From the NCBI RefSeq assembly GCF_036021035.1, contig NZ_CP107930.1, positions 620,001-684,000 on the forward strand: a DNA stretch of 64,000 nucleotides, in the 5' to 3' direction. Source of the stretch: Kineococcus sp. NBC_00420. Its GTDB lineage: Bacteria > Actinomycetota > Actinomycetes > Actinomycetales > Kineococcaceae. Positions 45,622-64,000 of this stretch are shown one piece after another (positions within the stretch are counted from its first letter, which is position 1; each line of letters opens with the position of its first letter). The position numbers and the translations under genes are program-made. The notes beneath the pieces are model-generated. The model ran no database searches. It had not been told where the DNA came from and saw nothing but the letters and a program-made list of their open reading frames with translations.

Positions 45622-45717
45622 TGGCGGAGGCGGATGGGAATCGAACCCACCTGACCGAGGTGCTCGGTCACGTCGGTGTTGAAGACCGCGGGGGCCACCA
45701 GGCACCCGTACGCCTCC
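45622..45717 (-). tRNA. selC: tRNA-Sec (anticodon UCA)
   Basis: A 96-base tRNA including CCA. The acceptor stem GGAGGCG (45717-45711) pairs with the CGCCTCC before GCCA. The anticodon loop CTTCAAC carries TCA, reading UGA. The long variable arm (about GACCGAGCACCTCGGTC) and the T arm GGTTCGATTCC are present, with the 8-bp acceptor typical of selenocysteine tRNA. It lies between selD (divergent) and selA. Confidence 0.93.
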
Positions 45718-55248: not shown

Positions 55249-56493
55249 GTGCCGACCGACGACGACCGTCCCCTGCCGCTCTCGGGCCTGCGGGTCCTGG
55301 AGCTCGGCAACTACATCGCCGCCCCCACGGCGGGGAGGTTGCTGGCCGACTTCGGGGCCGAGGTCGTCAAGGTCGAGCGCCCCCGCACCGGTGACGAACT
55401 GCGGAACTGGCGCCTCTACGCCGGGGACACGTCGATGCTCTACCGGACGGTGAACCGCGGGAAGAAGTCGATCGTCGTCGACCTGCGGACCCCCGAGGGC
55501 CGCGACGTCGTCCGTGAACTGGTCCGCGCCTCCGACGCGCTGATCGAGAACTTCCGGCCGGGGACCCTGGACCGGTGGGGGCTCTCGGCGGCGGATCTGC
55601 ACGCGGAGAACCCCGACCTCGTCGTGGCCAGGATCTCCGCCTTCGGGCAGACCGGTCCGATGGCGGCCCGCCCGGGATTCGCGGCCGTCGCCGAGGCGTT
55701 CGGCGGACTCCGCGCGCTGGTCGGCGAGGCCGACCGCCCGCCGTCGCGCACCGGGGTCTCCATCGGGGACTCCATCGCCGGTCTCTACGCCGCCTTCGGG
55801 GTCGTCATGTCGCTGCTGCAACGGGACCGGCGCTCCGCCGCGGGCGCACCACCGCTCGGTCCGGTGGACCAGCACGTCGACGTCGCCCTCAACGAGGCCG
55901 TCCTGTCGATGATGGAGTCCCTCGTGCCCGACCACTCCGCCTACGGGGTGACGCGGCAGCGGGTCGGCGGGCGCATGGAGGGGATCGCGCCGACGAACGC
56001 CTACGAGTGCCTCGACGGCAGCGTCGTGATCGCCGGGAACGGCGACTCGATCTTCGCCCGGTTCATGACCGCCATCGCCCGTCCCGACCTCGCCGACGAC
56101 GCGGACCTGGGGAGCAACGCGGCCCGGTGGCAGCGTCGGGACGAGCTCGACGAGGCCATCACGGCGTGGACCTCGACCCGCACCCGGGCGGTGGTCCTCG
56201 ACGTCCTCGACGTCGCCGGCGTCCCGGCCGGCCCCATCTACGAGGCCGCCGACATCCGCGCCGATCCGCAGTACCGCGTCCGGGGCATGGTGCAGGAGCT
56301 CCGCGTGGACGCCGGACGGGGTCCGCAGCCGGTGGACTTCCCGGGGATCGTGCCGCTGCTCGGGGCCACGTCCTTGCCGGTGCGCAGCGTCGGCCCCGAC
56401 CTCGGCGAACACACCGTCGAGGTCCTGACGGGCGTCCTGGGGTGGTCCGCGGAGCGTGCACAGCAGTTCGCGGCGACGGGGGAACTCTCGTGA
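55249..56493 (+). CDS. CaiB/BaiF-family CoA-transferase
   Basis: A 414-residue class III CoA-transferase. The N-terminus LSGLRVLELGNYIAAPTAGR then FGAEVVKVERP and NRGKKSIVVDLRTPEGR is typical. The catalytic Asp is in SIGDSIAGLYAAFG (about D174). It moves CoA between a donor acyl-CoA and a carboxylic acid. Its stop overlaps the start of an HMG-CoA-lyase-like gene, a pairing seen in pathways that activate and cleave branched or hydroxy acids. The actual substrate is unknown. Confidence 0.92.
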   Translation: MPTDDDRPLPLSGLRVLELGNYIAAPTAGRLLADFGAEVVKVERPRTGDELRNWRLYAGDTSMLYRTVNRGKKSIVVDLRTPEGRDVVRELVRASDALIENFRPGTLDRWGLSAADLHAENPDLVVARISAFGQTGPMAARPGFAAVAEAFGGLRALVGEADRPPSRTGVSIGDSIAGLYAAFGVVMSLLQRDRRSAAGAPPLGPVDQHVDVALNEAVLSMMESLVPDHSAYGVTRQRVGGRMEGIAPTNAYECLDGSVVIAGNGDSIFARFMTAIARPDLADDADLGSNAARWQRRDELDEAITAWTSTRTRAVVLDVLDVAGVPAGPIYEAADIRADPQYRVRGMVQELRVDAGRGPQPVDFPGIVPLLGATSLPVRSVGPDLGEHTVEVLTGVLGWSAERAQQFAATGELS

Positions 56494-57407
56494 GCACGGT
56501 GGAACTGCGTGACGTGACGTTGCGGGACGGCCTGCAACTGGTCGGCCGTGCACCGAGCACCGCGCGCAAGGTGGAGATCGTCCGGGCCCTGCTCGCCCTG
56601 GGGGTCCCGAGCCTGGAGATCGGCTCGATGGCGCGCGGCGACCTCGTCCCCACACTGGCCGACACCCTCGAGGTCGTCGACGCCCTGACCCCGGAGGAGT
56701 TGCGGCGGTGCTGGGTGTGGGTCGCCACCCCGGGTCACGTGCGCCGCGCGGCCGAACGCGGGGTCGTGAACTTCCAGTACTGCCTCTCGGTGTCGGACGC
56801 CCACAACCGCGCGAACCTCGGACGCAGCACCGAGCAGAGCCTGGACACCGTGCCGGACGGGATCGCAGCCGCCGAGAGCGGGCGGATCCAGTTGTGCCTG
56901 GCCACGAGCTTCACCTGCCCGTTCGACGGTCCCGTCGACCCCGACGAGGTCATCCGCATCGCCAACGACCCGCGGACCGCCGGCACCCAGGACATCGTCG
57001 TCTGCGACACCCTGGGTCAGGCGACCCCGGCGGAGGTCGGCTCGCTGATCTCCCGGGTGCGGACCGAGACCCCGGAGCGGCGGATCGGTTTCCACGGCCA
57101 CGACACCTGGGGCCAGGGGGTCGCGAACGCACACGCGGCCGTCGCAGCCGGTGCCGGTTTCGTCGACGCCACCCTGGGGGGCCTGGGCGGCTGCCCGTTC
57201 GCGCCCGGGGCGAGCGGCAACACGGCCACCGAGGACCTCGTGTTCGGTCTGCGGCCGGACTGGCTCACCCCGCAGACGTTCGCGGAACTCGTGCAGTTGT
57301 CCGAGTCGGTCCTGGCCGAGCTCGGCGAACCCGGCGCCTCGAAGGCGGCGCAGGGTGCGCGCTCGACCGCCGGAGCCTTCCCGTGGACGCTCAGCCCCAG
57401 GCCGTAG
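56490..57407 (+). CDS. HMG-CoA-lyase-like enzyme (DRE-TIM family)
   Basis: A 305-residue TIM-barrel lyase. Motifs: ELRDVTLRDGLQLVGR (with the RDG metal and base residues), IGFHGHDTWGQGVANAHAAV (His metal ligands) and GGLGGCPFAPGASGNTATED (the flexible catalytic-Cys loop of HMG-CoA lyase). It cleaves a 3-hydroxyacyl-CoA such as HMG-CoA or a relative into acetyl-CoA plus a ketone or ketoacid. GTG start overlapping the CoA-transferase stop; the two probably act in sequence. Confidence 0.92.
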   Translation: MSTVELRDVTLRDGLQLVGRAPSTARKVEIVRALLALGVPSLEIGSMARGDLVPTLADTLEVVDALTPEELRRCWVWVATPGHVRRAAERGVVNFQYCLSVSDAHNRANLGRSTEQSLDTVPDGIAAAESGRIQLCLATSFTCPFDGPVDPDEVIRIANDPRTAGTQDIVVCDTLGQATPAEVGSLISRVRTETPERRIGFHGHDTWGQGVANAHAAVAAGAGFVDATLGGLGGCPFAPGASGNTATEDLVFGLRPDWLTPQTFAELVQLSESVLAELGEPGASKAAQGARSTAGAFPWTLSPRP

Positions 57408-58028: not shown

Positions 58029-59462
58029 ATGACAGCGGCACTCGCGGAGCGAACGGAAGAGACCCCCACCGGGGTCGCCTTCGGCCTCCCCGGCAAGTAC
58101 CGCCGCTTCGCCGACGCCGCCCACGCCCTGTTCTACCTCGGCGTCGCCGACGCCGTCACCATGGTCCACGACTCCCCCCACCCCGACCTCGACCAACTCC
58201 AAGACCGCGGGGTCACCATCACCGGAACCGGGTTCGACCGCTGGGAGGCCGCCGTCGACCTCGTCGCCGAGGAGTACTCCCGCGACGAAGGCATGGACTT
58301 CGACCGAGCCCGCGCCACCATCCACAACGCCTGGCGCAAGGGCCACGACCACCGCACCCTCTGGCAAGCCGTCGCCGACGGCAGTGTCACCCGCTACCAG
58401 GCCCGCACCATCGAAGACCACGCCGAACGCCTCAGCGCCCGCACCGCCACCCTCACCGACCACCTCGACCCCGATGGCAACGTCACCTCCCAAGAGGTGA
58501 CCGAAGAAGAGAAACTCCTCCAAGGAGACGCCTACACCGCGGCTCTGCAGGACTACTTCACCGACGCCGTCCACCACGCGCAAACCGGCCTGACCGGACG
58601 GAAGCTCAGCATCAAGTGCTCCCGGAAAGTCCGGGAACTGACCCCCGGCTACGAATCCGTCACCCTCGCCAAGAACGACGACCGCCACGGACTTGGACAC
58701 ACCCCCTGCGAAGACGGCCTCCACAGCCACCTCGGGTTCATCGCCCCCACCGCCTTCGCCCTCCGCTTGGTGGCGCACACCAATGCTGCCGCCGACCACG
58801 CCGCGGACGCTGCGAAGAGGGCCGGCCTCGTCGACACCCGGTCCCACGGGCAGCGAGTTCGCGACGTCATCGTCGACATGCTCACCGACGCCATGAACCG
58901 CGCCGTCCCCGCCCTCTCGGATCCCACCACACCTGCCACCGCTGATTCACCCGCAGTGATCGGGCGCACCCACCGCCCCGCGACGTCCGTCCAGGTCTAC
59001 GTCCGCATCGACGCCACCACCCTCCTCGGCCTCGACGACGAAGAAGCCACCGTCGACGGCGTCGGACCCGTCCCCGCCCACGTCACCCGCGAACTCGCCA
59101 CCAGCGTCGGCGCGATGTGGCGCAAGGTCATCGAATCCCCCGGCACCCGAGACGTCATCGACATCGGCGCCAAGGCCTACGCCATCACCGACACCATGCG
59201 CCGCTTCATCACCACCCGTGATGAGTACTGCCAAGCTCCCGGCTGCCACGTTCCCGCCGTCAACTGCGACCTCGACCACGCCATCCCCAGGCCCGAAGGT
59301 CAGACCACCGCGAACAACCTCCGCGCCTACTGTCGAGGCCATCACCGCTTCAAGACCCAGTACGTCTTCGAAGCCACGAAGGCCCACCACGCCAGGATCA
59401 ACGCAAGGCTCGGGAAGCCGGGAGAACTCTGGCCCGGGCTTCCAGACGAACCACCGTTCTGA
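58029..59462 (+). CDS. DUF222/HNH endonuclease (13E12 repeat family)
   Basis: A 477-residue protein of a family found in many near-identical copies in actinobacteria. The DUF222 region (about 60-300) is helical. The C-terminal HNH domain is CQAPGCHVPAVNCDLDHAIP then TTANNLRAYCRGHHRFKT, with the zinc Cys pairs and the D-H...N...H catalytic set intact. Function is unproven; mobile or DNA-damage-related roles have been proposed for the family. The upstream 230 bases hold no gene; TCGAAC half-sites occur at about 57990-58012. Confidence 0.92.
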   Translation: MTAALAERTEETPTGVAFGLPGKYRRFADAAHALFYLGVADAVTMVHDSPHPDLDQLQDRGVTITGTGFDRWEAAVDLVAEEYSRDEGMDFDRARATIHNAWRKGHDHRTLWQAVADGSVTRYQARTIEDHAERLSARTATLTDHLDPDGNVTSQEVTEEEKLLQGDAYTAALQDYFTDAVHHAQTGLTGRKLSIKCSRKVRELTPGYESVTLAKNDDRHGLGHTPCEDGLHSHLGFIAPTAFALRLVAHTNAAADHAADAAKRAGLVDTRSHGQRVRDVIVDMLTDAMNRAVPALSDPTTPATADSPAVIGRTHRPATSVQVYVRIDATTLLGLDDEEATVDGVGPVPAHVTRELATSVGAMWRKVIESPGTRDVIDIGAKAYAITDTMRRFITTRDEYCQAPGCHVPAVNCDLDHAIPRPEGQTTANNLRAYCRGHHRFKTQYVFEATKAHHARINARLGKPGELWPGLPDEPPF

Positions 59463-59536: not shown

Positions 59537-60280
59537 TCAGGGCAGGACGAGGAGATCCTCGTGCGGCACCACGGCGGAGGTCACGGCCGGCGCCTCGATC
59601 CCGGCGGCACCGAACCACCCCCGCGCCCACTCCTGCAGCAGGGGCGAGTCCGCCAGCCGCCAGGGGGTCGGTTCCCGCTCGACGGTCCACCCCCGGGCGG
59701 CGAAACCTGCCACGCAGAACTCGACCGCGTCGGGGCCGAGACCGTGCGAGCGCTGGTCTGCGTCGAAACCGGCGGCAGCCTCGGGGGCGGGGGGTTCGGT
59801 GGTGGCCCCGCCGGTGACGGTCAGCACGAACAGGACCGCGGGGCGGGGTGCGAGGGCGGACAACCCGTCGAGGAGGGTGTCGGCCACCGCCGCGGACAGC
59901 ACGTCCAGCAGGGCGGAACCCACGACCAGGTCGGCACCGGTGAGCACCGACCGCAGCGCGTCCGGGTCGCCGAGGTCCGCCCGCGCCGTCCGCACGGACG
60001 TCGCGGCGGGGGCGGGGGTCGCGAGCGCCCGCTGCAGGAGTTCCTCGTCGTGGTCGACGAGGAGCCAGTGCTGTTCGGCGTCCACCCCGAGTTCCGCCAG
60101 CCGCGGGGCGAGGTGGCGCAGGGTGGAGCCCGAACCCGCACCGAGGTCGACGATGCGCAGGGCCGGGCGGTCGGCGAGCGCCGGGACGAGCAGTTCCTCC
60201 AGGCGGGCGGACCGGGTCGCGTGGTCGAGAGGTTCCCGCAGGGCCAGCCAGTCCGGATCGAAGTTCTCCAGGTCGTTCAC
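59537..60280 (-). CDS. SAM-dependent methyltransferase of the pterin-like cluster
   Basis: A 247-residue class I methyltransferase. Motif I is IVDLGAGSGSTLRHLAPRL near residues 43-61; the acidic motif II region is LLVDHDEELLQRAL. LGDPDALRSVLTGADLVVGS follows as motif III. The start GTG 60280 overlaps the stop of the glycosyltransferase gene. Substrate unknown; the operon suggests a small glycosylated molecule. Confidence 0.85.
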   Translation of the reverse strand: MNDLENFDPDWLALREPLDHATRSARLEELLVPALADRPALRIVDLGAGSGSTLRHLAPRLAELGVDAEQHWLLVDHDEELLQRALATPAPAATSVRTARADLGDPDALRSVLTGADLVVGSALLDVLSAAVADTLLDGLSALAPRPAVLFVLTVTGGATTEPPAPEAAAGFDADQRSHGLGPDAVEFCVAGFAARGWTVEREPTPWRLADSPLLQEWARGWFGAAGIEAPAVTSAVVPHEDLLVLP

Positions 60281-61167
60281 AGGACACCTTCCACGATCCG
60301 TGCGGTCTCGTCCCAGGTCGGGAGCGAGCGGGTTCGTGCCGCAGAACGCAGCCGGTACCGCAGCGACGCGTCGGAAGCCCACTGCTGCAGGGTCTCCGCG
60401 ACGTCCGCGGGCCGTCGGGGCACGACGATCCCGGCGTCTCCCACGAGTTCGGGGAGTTCCCCGGCGTCCGCGACCAGCGACGGCACCCCGCGTCGCAGAC
60501 CTTCGGCGACGGCCATCCCGTAGGGTTCCGCGCTCGAGAGCAGGACGTGCAGGTCGGCCCGGTCCCACTCCGCCTGGAGGGCGTCGCCGTGCAGGGGGCC
60601 GAGCAGGGTCGTCCCGGGGAGGGACAAACCCTCGGCCACGGTTCCGGCGCAGTGCAACGACCAGGGTGGGCCGAGGGCCGCGACGGCCTCCGCGACCACC
60701 CGCTGCCCCTTGCGCTCACCCACGGTCCCGACGCAGAGGAGCCGGTGCGCGCCGAGGGCCGCAGACGTCGGTGCGGGCGAGGTTCCCGGTTCGGCGACGA
60801 CCGCGCCCACTCCGGCGACCTCCAGGACCCGGACGCGGGAACTGCGGCTGGTCACCACGACGGCGTCGACCAGTCGCAGGGCGCGGACCTCCTCGGCCAG
60901 GAGGGAGCCCGCGGGCTGATCGTCGGCACGCAACAGGTGGACGAGCAGGACCAGCCGCAGCCGCCCCGCGTGCGCGGCGAGGACGTCGGGCTGCTCCGTG
61001 GCGACCAGCCCGTCCAGTAACGCCGTGGACCCGTCGGCGAGACCGGCCAGGGAGGTCTGCAGGTCCCCGACGACCACGTGGGACAGGGGGGCACGGTCGA
61101 GGAGTTCCCGGTCGTAGCGGTTCCCGCCGGTCGGCGCCGAGAGGTCGGGCGCGAGCAAGAACCTCAC
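60277..61167 (-). CDS. GT-B (family 4-like) glycosyltransferase of the pterin-like cluster
   Basis: A 296-residue glycosyltransferase. It begins MRFLLAPDLSAPTGGNRYDR, where TGGNRYDR is the N-terminal sugar or acceptor loop, and has LLCVGTVGERKGQRVVAEAV and the GPGTP_R/E-x7-E motif region AEPYGMAVAEGLRRGVPSLV. At about 300 residues it is shorter than typical GT4 enzymes. Seven bases separate it from the upstream pterin-synthase-like gene, and its stop overlaps the methyltransferase start. Confidence 0.87.
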   Translation of the reverse strand: MRFLLAPDLSAPTGGNRYDRELLDRAPLSHVVVGDLQTSLAGLADGSTALLDGLVATEQPDVLAAHAGRLRLVLLVHLLRADDQPAGSLLAEEVRALRLVDAVVVTSRSSRVRVLEVAGVGAVVAEPGTSPAPTSAALGAHRLLCVGTVGERKGQRVVAEAVAALGPPWSLHCAGTVAEGLSLPGTTLLGPLHGDALQAEWDRADLHVLLSSAEPYGMAVAEGLRRGVPSLVADAGELPELVGDAGIVVPRRPADVAETLQQWASDASLRYRLRSAARTRSLPTWDETARIVEGVL

Positions 61168-61174
61168 GACGACA

Positions 61175-61549
61175 TCAGAGGGTTCGCTCGTAGGAACCCC
61201 ACGCGACGTCGGACTCGCGCAGCAGCACCTCGATGCTGTCCAGACCCGTCCCGAGCCGGTCCGCGAGCCGGTCGGCGACCCAGGCGCAGAGGAACTCCGT
61301 CGTCGTGTTCTTCCCCGCGAACTCCTCGACGTCGTCGAGGTTGCGGTACTCCACCGACGCGAGGACCGATCGCAGGGCCCCCGCGGCGATCCCGATGTCC
61401 ACCACGAGGCCGTCGGCGTCGAGGACGGCCCGTCGGAACGTCGCCTCCACGACGAACGTCGCCCCGTGCAACCGCTGGGCCGGGCCGAACACCGCCCCGG
61501 TGAAGCTGTGGGCGATCATCATCCGGTCGCGGACGGTCAACGAGTACAC
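61175..61549 (-). CDS. Divergent 6-pyruvoyl-tetrahydropterin synthase/QueD family protein
   Basis: A 124-residue T-fold protein. It keeps AHSF (His14), LHG (His28), [10 protein letters not shown] (catalytic Glu region) and a C-terminal IEVLLRES (Glu). Ala30 replaces the second His of the usual HGH zinc motif, and the catalytic Cys normally four residues before HGH is absent (GPAQRLHGA). Standard 6-carboxy- or 6-pyruvoyl-tetrahydropterin synthase chemistry is therefore doubtful. GTG start. It sits between a dehydrogenase (13 bases) and a glycosyltransferase (7 bases). Confidence 0.85.
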
Positions 61550-61562
61550 GGTCAGGGGCTCC

Positions 61563-62540
61563 TCAGTAGCGGAAACGGTGGCAGAGGGCGTCGCCGCCGG
61601 GGGCGGCGAGGGCGGGCAGCACGGTGGCGGCCTCGTCGAACGGGGTCTCGCCGTCCAGCAGCACGTCGAACCGGTCGTCCGTCAGCAGGTCGAGGGCCAG
61701 CGCGAGCCGGCGACGCGTCGTCCAGCGCGGCGCGCGGGCGGGGGGTACCCGACCGACCTGGCTGGCCCGGATCGTCAGTCGCCGGGAGTGGAAACCCTCC
61801 CCCAGCCCGACCTCGACGGAGCGGTCTCCGTACCAGCTGAGTTCGGCCAGCAGCCCCTCCGAGCCGAGCAGGCCGAGACCGGTGGTCAGGCCCGCCCCGG
61901 TCCCGCTGGTGTGCAGGACGACGTCGCGTTCCCGGCGGGCGTCGTCGGGGGCGACGAGGCGGAACCCCAGGTCGTCGGCGGTGCGTGAGCGGTCGGTGCG
62001 GACGTCGACGGCTTCGACGTCGGTGCCCGGAACCCGGGCCGCGAGCGCCGCGACGAGCAGGCCGAGGACGCCCGCACCGACGACGCTGACCCGGTCACCG
62101 ATGCCGACGCCGGCGTCCCACACGCCGTTCACGGCGGTCTCCAGCATCCCCGCGAGGACGGCCCGGCCGGTGGGGACGCCCGCGGGGACGGGCAGGACGG
62201 CCGAGGCCGGGACGACGTAGCGGTCCTGGTGGGGGTGCAGGCAGAAGACGGCGCGTCCCACCAGGTCCTGCGCGCGGGCCCCGGCGTGCACGACGGTCCC
62301 GACCGAGAGGTAGCCGTACTTCACGGGGTAGGGGAACTCCCCGGCCTGGAACGGCGCGCGCATGACGTCGTGCTGGCTCTCGGGGACCCCGCCCGCGAGC
62401 ACGAGGGCCTCGGTCCCGCGGCTGACGGCCGAGAACTCGGCGCGGACCTCGACGTCGGCGACACCGAGGACGGGCAGGAGCTCGTCGCGCAGTTCCGCCC
62501 GGCCCGGACCGGTGACCCACAACGCGCGGGCGACGCTCAC
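61563..62540 (-). CDS. BchC-like medium-chain dehydrogenase
   Basis: A 325-residue MDR-superfamily oxidoreductase. The segment [18 protein letters not shown] then [20 protein letters not shown] resembles the bacteriochlorophyllide dehydrogenase BchC subgroup rather than classical zinc alcohol dehydrogenases; the usual catalytic and structural Cys ligands are not visible. The cofactor motif is [21 protein letters not shown] 62540 has GGAGG 4 bases upstream and overlaps the hydrolase stop. Substrate unknown, presumably an intermediate of this operon. Confidence 0.85.
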
Positions 62541-63700
62541 GGGACCTCCTCCAGCTTCGCGGTGACGAAGTCCCGCACGGCGCTCTCCCAGCGCGGGGGG
62601 TCGACGTTCCACTCCTTGGTGTGGCGGGCGGTGGAACTCGCGACGTAGGTGATGAGGTCGGGCCGCGCCGCCGCCAGGCGTTCCGAGGGGCCGTGGGGCA
62701 CGTAGTCGTCGGCGTCGGAGTGCAGCAGCAGCACGGGCAGCACGAGTTCCTCGGCGCGACGCACCCAGTCCATGGCGCGGAGGTCGACCGGTCCCCGGAC
62801 CCCCACGAGCCGCCGACCGACGGGATGCGCGAGCAGGCGCAACCCGTAGCGCCCCAACCGGATCGGGATCCCCCGTTGCCGCGCCTGGTTGTCCAGCACG
62901 TCGTACCAGTCGACCACCGGCCCGTCGAGGACGAGCGCGCAGACCTTCTCGGCCAACGGCGAGCGGGCGACGAACTGCAGCAGGATCGCCCCGCCCATCG
63001 ACCAGCCCACGACGAGCAGACGCCGGGCGCCGGAGTCGATCGCGTGCTGTGCCACCGCCTCCACGTCGTTCCACTCGGTGTCGCCGAGGCCGTAGAGGCC
63101 CGGTTTCGCGGCCGGGGCGTCGGCGTCGTTGCGGTAGCTGGGGACCAGGCACGGGATGCCCAGTTCGTGCAGGACGGGGAGGGCCCGCAACGCCTCTTCG
63201 CGGGTGGCGCCGCGGCCGTGGACGAGGACCGCCCAGACGTCGCTCTCGCCCCGCGAGGCGGTGGGGACGAACCAGCAGGGCAGGTCCCCGACCTCGCCGG
63301 GGACGACGAGGTCCTCGTGGGCGAGACCGAGGGCCGTGCTCGGGTCGCCCGAGTAGTAGTACTGGTTCCAGCGCGCCGACCCGGGCCGTGGGACCCCCCG
63401 GTCCACGCCGAGCAGTTCCCGCGTCACCCGGCCGTCGGTCACGTCGAGGACGTCCCCCACGCGGAAGTGCCCCCGGCCGCCGTCGGTCCAGACGCCGTAG
63501 CGGCCCGGGACGACGGTGTCGACGGTCTGCTCGAGGACGACCCGGTGGGGTCCGACCTGCAGGACCTCGACGTCGTCGGGTTTGTGCGGGCGCGGGGTGA
63601 CCACGGCGCGGGCGAAGGACACCGCGACGCCCGTCAGCCCGGCACCGACCGCGGTGACGGTGAGCGCCGCCGCGAGCGGGACGAGGCGGGAGGCCTTCAC
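62537..63700 (-). CDS. Alpha/beta hydrolase with N-terminal membrane segment
   Basis: A 387-residue protein. An N-terminal hydrophobic segment (LVPLAAALTVTAVGAGLTG) could be a signal or anchor. The hydrolase core has VLVHGRGATREEALRALPVL (oxyanion), the nucleophile elbow GWSMGGAILL, LLLHSDADDYVPHG (Asp) and a late His in ARHTKEWNVD. Its stop overlaps the dehydrogenase start by four bases and its start overlaps the DoxX gene stop, so it is in the operon, though it may serve a general function. Confidence 0.88.
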   Translation of the reverse strand: MKASRLVPLAAALTVTAVGAGLTGVAVSFARAVVTPRPHKPDDVEVLQVGPHRVVLEQTVDTVVPGRYGVWTDGGRGHFRVGDVLDVTDGRVTRELLGVDRGVPRPGSARWNQYYYSGDPSTALGLAHEDLVVPGEVGDLPCWFVPTASRGESDVWAVLVHGRGATREEALRALPVLHELGIPCLVPSYRNDADAPAAKPGLYGLGDTEWNDVEAVAQHAIDSGARRLLVVGWSMGGAILLQFVARSPLAEKVCALVLDGPVVDWYDVLDNQARQRGIPIRLGRYGLRLLAHPVGRRLVGVRGPVDLRAMDWVRRAEELVLPVLLLHSDADDYVPHGPSERLAAARPDLITYVASSTARHTKEWNVDPPRWESAVRDFVTAKLEEVP

Positions 63701-64000
63701 CGTCCCGCCCGCCAGGCGGCACGGATCAGCGGGACCTGCAGGGGCAACCGGGCGATCGTGATCGCGCGGGCGCGGGGGGACCTCGCGTCGAGGGCCATCG
63801 TGACGTTGGCGGGCCAGACCGCGACCAGGAAGGCCGCAGCGACCGTGCCGCTCGCGCGGCGGGTCCGCGGGAGCGCCAACCCGGCCGCCAGTCCGAGCTC
63901 GACGACGCCGGAGGCGAGGGTCCAGGTGCGGGCGCTGCCCGGCAGCGCGCGCGGGACGATCTCGTCGAAGTGCGCCGCACGGACGAAGTGGGCGAGGCCC
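63697..64000 (-). CDS. DoxX-family membrane protein (partial, runs off the window)
   Basis: The visible C-terminal 100 residues read GLAHFVRAAHFDEIVPRALP then ARTWTLASGVVELGLAAGL, PRTRRASGTV and VWPANVTMALDAR. This matches small four-helix DoxX/DoxD-type membrane proteins. The N-terminus lies beyond base 64000. The stop overlaps the next gene start by four bases. Confidence 0.8.
   Translation of the reverse strand, partial: GLAHFVRAAHFDEIVPRALPGSARTWTLASGVVELGLAAGLALPRTRRASGTVAAAFLVAVWPANVTMALDARSPRARAITIARLPLQVPLIRAAWRAGR

Follow-up and report, generated by a model that had tools for sequence, protein, structure and literature searches.

A reduced PTPS-IV locus in Kineococcus that may make a glycosylated, methylated pyrimidine or pterin

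What do four tightly packed genes of the actinobacterium Kineococcus sp. NBC_00420 make? The genes lie in a 64,000-nucleotide stretch of DNA (the window) from a 5.43 Mb genome in a single contig, and they encode a dehydrogenase, a T-fold protein, a glycosyltransferase, and a methyltransferase. A preliminary description of the window, made from the letters alone, knew of no characterized pathway with this set of genes, and our literature search agrees: it turned up no paper that covers all of these genes together, and part of the set has been reported (PMC5445326). The same description thought that these genes could be the undescribed system of the window. We found instead that the locus is widespread in actinobacteria, and that its T-fold protein belongs to a subfamily that already has a name (PTPS-IV) and a relative of known structure. 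The locus is of a known kind and, as far as our literature search showed, its function is unsolved. The natural reading of the four genes is that they would make a small molecule that has a pterin-like ring and is glycosylated and methylated. More specifically, we think that the operon is probably a reduced, genus-specific PTPS-IV locus, and that its product derives, by glycosylation and methylation, from the 2-amino-4-oxo-pyrimidine that GTP cyclohydrolase II (GCH2) releases from GTP, possibly ring-closed to a pterin. We infer every chemical step and the product.

We scanned an alignment of the T-fold protein against 84,980 species genomes, which gave at least 566 confirmed relatives, and we kept the best 80 as loci. 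(These are not a random sample of the relatives; the T-fold protein is present in all 80 by construction; and 27 of the loci are shorter than full length, which leaves 53 full-length loci.) Within this set of the best 80 of at least 566, the dehydrogenase of the window has a match in all 80 loci (51-60% identity to the neighboring dehydrogenase), the glycosyltransferase in 77, and the methyltransferase in 73. All four genes occur in 72 loci and are adjacent on one strand in 64, so the four-gene order of the window does recur in other genomes; the dehydrogenase, T-fold, and glycosyltransferase genes are adjacent in 74. As controls in the same 80 loci, an aldo-keto reductase of the window had one match, and a CoA-transferase of the window, the hydrolase of the operon, and DoxX had none. 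A search of the phylum gave 24 short loci (L008-L031), and the dehydrogenase adjoins the T-fold match in 15 of them; eight of the other nine are more distant PTPS-family matches, and the last (L009) is at a contig end. The recurrence of this gene order across the phylum is more than chance. A close relative of the T-fold protein is present in 43 of 296 sampled genomes of the class, and the operon itself in 5 of 12 genomes of the family, all five in this genus.

We found the neighbors of the core genes by clustering and then by a more sensitive search. (Each family name rests on one representative, and the open reading frames for the clustering, as well as those around the GCH2 genes of the Kineococcus genome, came from a GC-position heuristic.) Across the 80 loci, the partners are a flippase-like protein (PF03706; 74 loci), a CDP-alcohol phosphotransferase (PF01066; 71), GCH2 (PF00925; 64, including 45 of the 53 full-length loci), a RibD_C reductase (PF01872; 45), a creatininase (PF02633; 35), and a sulfatase-like protein (27; PF00884 was below its cut-off). 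Furthermore, the order RibD_C, dehydrogenase, T-fold, glycosyltransferase was present in all six loci that we chose and fetched from one distant family (L156-L161), and both of the loci chosen from another family (L162 and L163) contain the glycosyltransferase and the dehydrogenase, the latter with GCH2 and RibD_C beside it; the T-fold gene of L163 was recognized by eye and had no tblastn match. GTP cyclohydrolase I (FolE) had no match in any of the 102 locus sequences that we searched, with the match of the query to itself as the control. Because GCH2 is common in the loci and GTP cyclohydrolase I is absent from them, the precursor is probably a diaminopyrimidine of the riboflavin branch; that is, the partner set of the relatives points to a GCH2 precursor rather than to the dihydroneopterin route. 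Also, the presence of the CDP-alcohol phosphotransferase and the flippase-like protein in most of the relatives examined suggests a membrane-linked or exported product. Judged by its gene content, the operon in Kineococcus is a reduced version of this widespread actinobacterial locus. As a separate observation, two copies of the locus (L089 and L102) are in contigs labelled as Gemmatimonadetes and Thioalkalivibrio metagenome-assembled genomes.

Part of this neighborhood is already on record. According to the available text of PMC5445326, a PTPS-IV cluster of 561 sequences has a neighborhood with PF00925 (called FolE2 there, and GTP cyclohydrolase II in Pfam) and PF01872. Here, the T-fold gene has neither GCH2 nor RibD_C beside it: this neighborhood is absent from the operon, it is present in relatives, and the genome has the pair elsewhere. 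The wider set of partners (dehydrogenase, glycosyltransferase, methyltransferase, CDP-alcohol transferase, flippase-like protein, and creatininase) does not appear in that available text.

The T-fold gene is the only PF01242 match in the genome. Its best solved relative is SCO6650 from Streptomyces coelicolor (PDB 3d7j; E = 6e-42, 145.6 bits, over the full length), which is reported to be without metal and without activity. Both proteins have the FGPAQ signature (here F21 G22 P23 A24 Q25), and both have HGA in place of HGH. Compared to QueD structures, the second histidine of HGH is replaced by Ala30, the cysteine of CxxxHGH is replaced by Ala24, and an Asp-His pair, which we take to be catalytic, is replaced by Glu67-Tyr68. 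Glu112 is invariant in 12 aligned rows and presumably anchors the 2-amino-4-oxo ring. FGPAQ is the signature of PTPS-IV in the available text of PMC5445326, and the motifs of three other subfamilies are given in that of PMC5041015. None of the three fits: for PTPS-I/QueD (CxxxHGH) the sequence here is A24QRLHGA, and the QueD model scores 39.7 bits (cut-off 89.25); for PTPS-II, the true PTPS (CxxxxxHGH), we see HGA and no cysteine in place; and for PTPS-III, which replaces DHNA (ExxHGH), we see Q25RLHGA. The preliminary description was thus right about the fold family, which is PF01242, but with the catalytic cysteine and one of the zinc histidines lost, "pterin synthase" is the wrong label. 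In the distant family of L156-L161, where the gene order is kept, the T-fold protein retains HGH in all five aligned rows (L010, L011, L013, L014, and L021), so the loss of the metal site may postdate the assembly of the locus.

A single residue of GCH2 gives a more specific view of the precursor. SCO6655 has Met120 and reportedly makes a formylated pyrimidine, while a tyrosine at that position is said to give the deformylated product. We read this switch position in all 64 loci that have GCH2. In the 30 loci with tyrosine, there was never a creatininase (0/30). In contrast, 33 of the 34 loci without the tyrosine have one: 15/15 with methionine, 16/16 with histidine, and 2/3 with leucine. In the single exception (L066), the contig breaks off just past the methyltransferase gene. 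Another four loci with tyrosine (L143, L144, L162, and L163) had no creatininase match at E values up to 1. This pattern would fit a pathway in which the diaminopyrimidine has to be deformylated and the creatininase does the work of the archaeal deformylase. Archaeal-type entry into riboflavin synthesis uses GTP cyclohydrolase III, the deformylase ArfB, and the reductase ArfC; the series from a formylated pyrimidine through a creatininase-family deformylase to a RibD_C reductase is the same logic that we suggest for the loci with methionine, histidine, or leucine. One RibD_C representative from the loci had its best match to the archaeal reductase model TIGR01508 (134.7 bits, below the cut-off of 186.45). 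The two systems differ in that the relatives' loci use a homolog of GCH2 and their creatininase representative scores just 37.6 bits with ArfB (cut-off 180).

As for the other three core enzymes, the dehydrogenase has its best match to the BchC model TIGR01202, at 60.1 bits against a cut-off of 291.25. The preliminary description had the kind of gene and its coordinates right, and the protein is only loosely BchC-like. The usual zinc ligands are absent and D179 is invariant in 15 aligned rows, and by the zinc-ligand and acid-for-NAD rules of medium-chain dehydrogenases, the sequence is that of a zinc-free, NAD-type enzyme that keeps the acid suited to NAD. The glycosyltransferase is over the cut-off for both of its Pfam families (see the table) and belongs to GT4, with the GT-B fold and the EX7E motif (E214 and E222); these two residues and K153 are invariant in 22 rows. 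Its predicted structure (predicted local distance difference test [pLDDT] 91.3) matches MshA, BshA, SenB, and PsBGluT in a fold search. By E value it is closest to MshA and BshA, the GT4 enzymes of mycothiol and bacillithiol synthesis, which share the fold and EX7E; the protein here differs in its length of 296 amino acids and its shortened N-terminal domain. For the methyltransferase, the matches to PF08242 and PF13649 are below the cut-offs; the protein keeps the DLGxGxGS motif and has a predicted structure (pLDDT 89.5) with the class I fold. A fold search with this model returned assorted class I methyltransferases and no hint of the substrate.

Could this genome supply the precursor? It has two GCH2 genes, and both encode tyrosine at the switch position, which should make a deformylase unnecessary; creatininase had no match in the genome. 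One GCH2 gene adjoins a RibD_C gene (C1:5.016 Mb); the second, at 2.958 Mb, falls nearer to the tyrosine clade of GCH2 from the loci. The type adjacent to RibD_C is present in 5/5 genomes of the family with the operon and in 5/7 without it. We rejected the idea that one GCH2 is dedicated to the operon in this genus, because the two did not clearly occur together. On these sequences, supply of the precursor by the genome's own GCH2 genes is plausible.

We can now suggest how the pathway might run. GCH2, encoded elsewhere in the genome, would form the diaminopyrimidine ribosyl phosphate, and the RibD_C reductase encoded beside one GCH2 copy may reduce the ribosyl to a ribityl group. The T-fold protein would bind the 2-amino-4-oxo ring of its putative substrate through the invariant glutamate, without the zinc and cysteine chemistry of PTPS or QueD. 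The zinc-free, NAD-type dehydrogenase would oxidize or reduce a hydroxyl or carbonyl of the side chain; the retaining-type GT4 enzyme would then add some sugar to the putative acceptor; and the methyltransferase, which depends on S-adenosylmethionine (SAM), would cap the product. In this genus, the operon carries the hydrolase and DoxX in place of the CDP-alcohol phosphotransferase and the flippase-like protein.

Several observations weigh against this proposal. None of the added partner genes is present in the operon of the window. Furthermore, the two PF03706 proteins of this genome are not recognizable relatives of the flippase in the loci, and there is no partner gene beside them, except for a weak glycosyltransferase match at one site (L151). 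With the partners absent and no recognizable relative of that flippase, the product here may be shorter or different. Among the 53 full-length loci, 8 have no GCH2 within 10 kb, and within the family, the second type of GCH2 (L148) is present in 4/5 genomes with the operon and in at least 4/7 without it. The GCH2 proteins of the loci (L032-L111) come from two well-separated clades, with the second large clade far away. That clade has tyrosine wherever the position was read; we left out L142, which belongs to it, as the pattern matched another stretch. Exactly the 34 sequences without tyrosine form one moderately supported group in the tree (84/82), other sequences in that half of the tree, outside this group, have tyrosine, and several forks are weakly supported. 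Because the set without tyrosine is one group, its association with creatininase may go back to a single evolutionary event; the Fisher value of 2e-17 overstates the association. Finally, the creatininase representative that matches ArfB so poorly has its best score with MftE, at 133 bits (cut-off 172).

If the product is instead a pterin glycoside of the cyanobacterial kind, then GTP cyclohydrolase I, a PTPS, a reductase, and a GT4 glucosyltransferase would make it, with the dehydrogenase replacing sepiapterin reductase. Bacterial pteridine glycosides do exist, and the cyanobacterial synthesis of tetrahydrobiopterin (BH4) glucoside and cyanopterin uses PTPS-II, sepiapterin reductase, and BGluT/PgtA (available text of PMC3546692). 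The series of T-fold protein, oxidoreductase, and glycosyltransferase is shared, the Kineococcus genome carries FolE (C1:3521556), and rank 49 in the fold search with the glycosyltransferase model was 9v0l, which is the tetrahydrobiopterin glucosyltransferase PsBGluT. However, MshA, BshA, and SenB all rank above 9v0l; the T-fold protein lacks the catalytic cysteine and the HGH motif, and so has no PTPS-II motif; the dehydrogenase is of a different family; there is an extra methyltransferase; and the loci of the relatives commonly have GCH2 and RibD_C instead of FolE. We consider this alternative possible but doubtful. Membership in PF01242 would also allow a role like that of QueD in a 7-deazaguanine pathway of the queuosine type, which is scarcely credible given the missing motif and the low score with the QueD model; QueC and QueE were not among the ten named neighbor clusters, and no separate search was made for them.

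A role in the synthesis of cofactor F420 deserves mention because PTPS-IV, whose FGPAQ signature is present here, was assigned to archaeal F420 as unpublished work (available text of PMC5041015). But FO synthase (TIGR03551) was over its cut-off in just 1 of the 12 genomes of the family, one without the operon, and the best match in this genome has 222.9 bits against the cut-off of 374.1. No F420 gene was among the ten named neighbor clusters, and no dedicated F420 search was made in the 80 loci. Without an FO synthase over the cut-off in this genome, an F420 role is very unlikely here. Alternatively, the operon could be a decaying remnant of the larger locus that no longer makes anything, as the missing partner genes and the presence of the operon in only 5 of 12 genomes might suggest. 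This seems quite improbable: the frames of all four core genes are intact, the motifs are kept, and of 24 comparisons of single genes with the four other loci from this genus, 23 gave a ratio of nonsynonymous to synonymous change (pN/pS) of 0.21-0.58. (The 24th, for the methyltransferase of L153, had no match as the contig ends there.) These four loci also have the fixed order DoxX, hydrolase, dehydrogenase, T-fold, glycosyltransferase, methyltransferase, and one of them ends with its contig before the methyltransferase. The hydrolase and DoxX genes are in this same place in 4/4 of these loci and in none of the 80 other loci.

To return to the pathway from GCH2, a further and unlikely elaboration of it is that the product of the full locus is a glycoside of a ribityl-pyrimidine or ribityl-pterin, either anchored in the membrane or exported, and that this genus makes a soluble, lipid-free version. 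The ribityl ring would come from GCH2 and RibD_C, and the four core enzymes would oxidize it, glycosylate it, and methylate it. The CDP-alcohol phosphotransferase would link a phospholipid to one of the ribityl hydroxyls, and the flippase-like protein would turn the product outward. If so, such a glycoside would represent a redox- or light-active membrane headgroup of a new class. The flippase-like neighbor in most of the relatives examined would also be a candidate part of a pterin efflux system. (According to the available text of a 2026 review, no such system has been identified; PMC13259868.)

The locus matters because, in the literature that we searched, we found no product for the SCO6650 structure or for the PTPS-IV subfamily. 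A search for SCO6650 by name gave no match, and SCO6655 is mentioned in PMC2853524. The anatomy of the locus, and the match between the switch residue and the deformylase-like gene, would point to a particular precursor and sequence of reactions in lineages that range from streptomycetes to distant actinobacteria. Of the versions seen that have all four genes, the operon in Kineococcus is the smallest, so it is convenient to delete or to express.

The four core genes are part of a minus-strand series of six tightly packed genes (see the table). From the hydrolase to the methyltransferase, the junctions are -4, +13, +7, and -4 bases, and DoxX and the hydrolase also overlap by 4 bases. These coordinates bear out what had been described, namely gaps of 13 and 7 bases and one overlap among the four core genes, preceded by the hydrolase and DoxX with overlaps. 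The name DoxX comes from the preliminary description; the part of the protein inside the window had no Pfam match, and its full length was outside that scan. A divergent gene starts upstream of DoxX, and the downstream neighbor of the operon is a plus-strand gene that ends at 59462. A scan for promoters and terminators found nothing.

Table. Genes of the operon, with positions in the window
Feature	Position	Strand	Evidence
Dehydrogenase, zinc-free NAD-type medium-chain, BchC-like, 325 amino acids (predicted)	61563..62540	-	TIGR01202 60 bits, below cut-off
T-fold protein, COG0720, subfamily PTPS-IV signature, 124 amino acids	61175..61549	-	PF01242 82.4 bits (cut-off 22.4)
GT4 glycosyltransferase (GT-B, retaining type), 296 amino acids, short N-terminal domain	60277..61167	-	PF13692, PF00534
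Class I SAM methyltransferase, 247 amino acids	59537..60280	-	PF08242/PF13649 below cut-off; DLGxGxGS motif
Alpha/beta hydrolase, lineage-specific first part of operon	62537..63700	-	PF12146 over cut-off
DoxX-like membrane protein	63697..64059, past window end at 64000 (L002:8698-9060)	-	Open frame

We also noticed a few other features of the window. The plus-strand gene at 58029-59462 encodes a protein of 477 amino acids whose C-terminal part looks HNH-like by eye, with no Pfam match at 0.001. At 55249-57407 (plus strand), genes for a CoA-transferase of family III and an HMGL-like lyase overlap by 4 bases and are perhaps a pair for acyl-CoA degradation. Finally, there is a selenocysteine tRNA gene at 45626-45715 (minus strand), so selenoproteins with in-frame TGA codons may occur in this genome.

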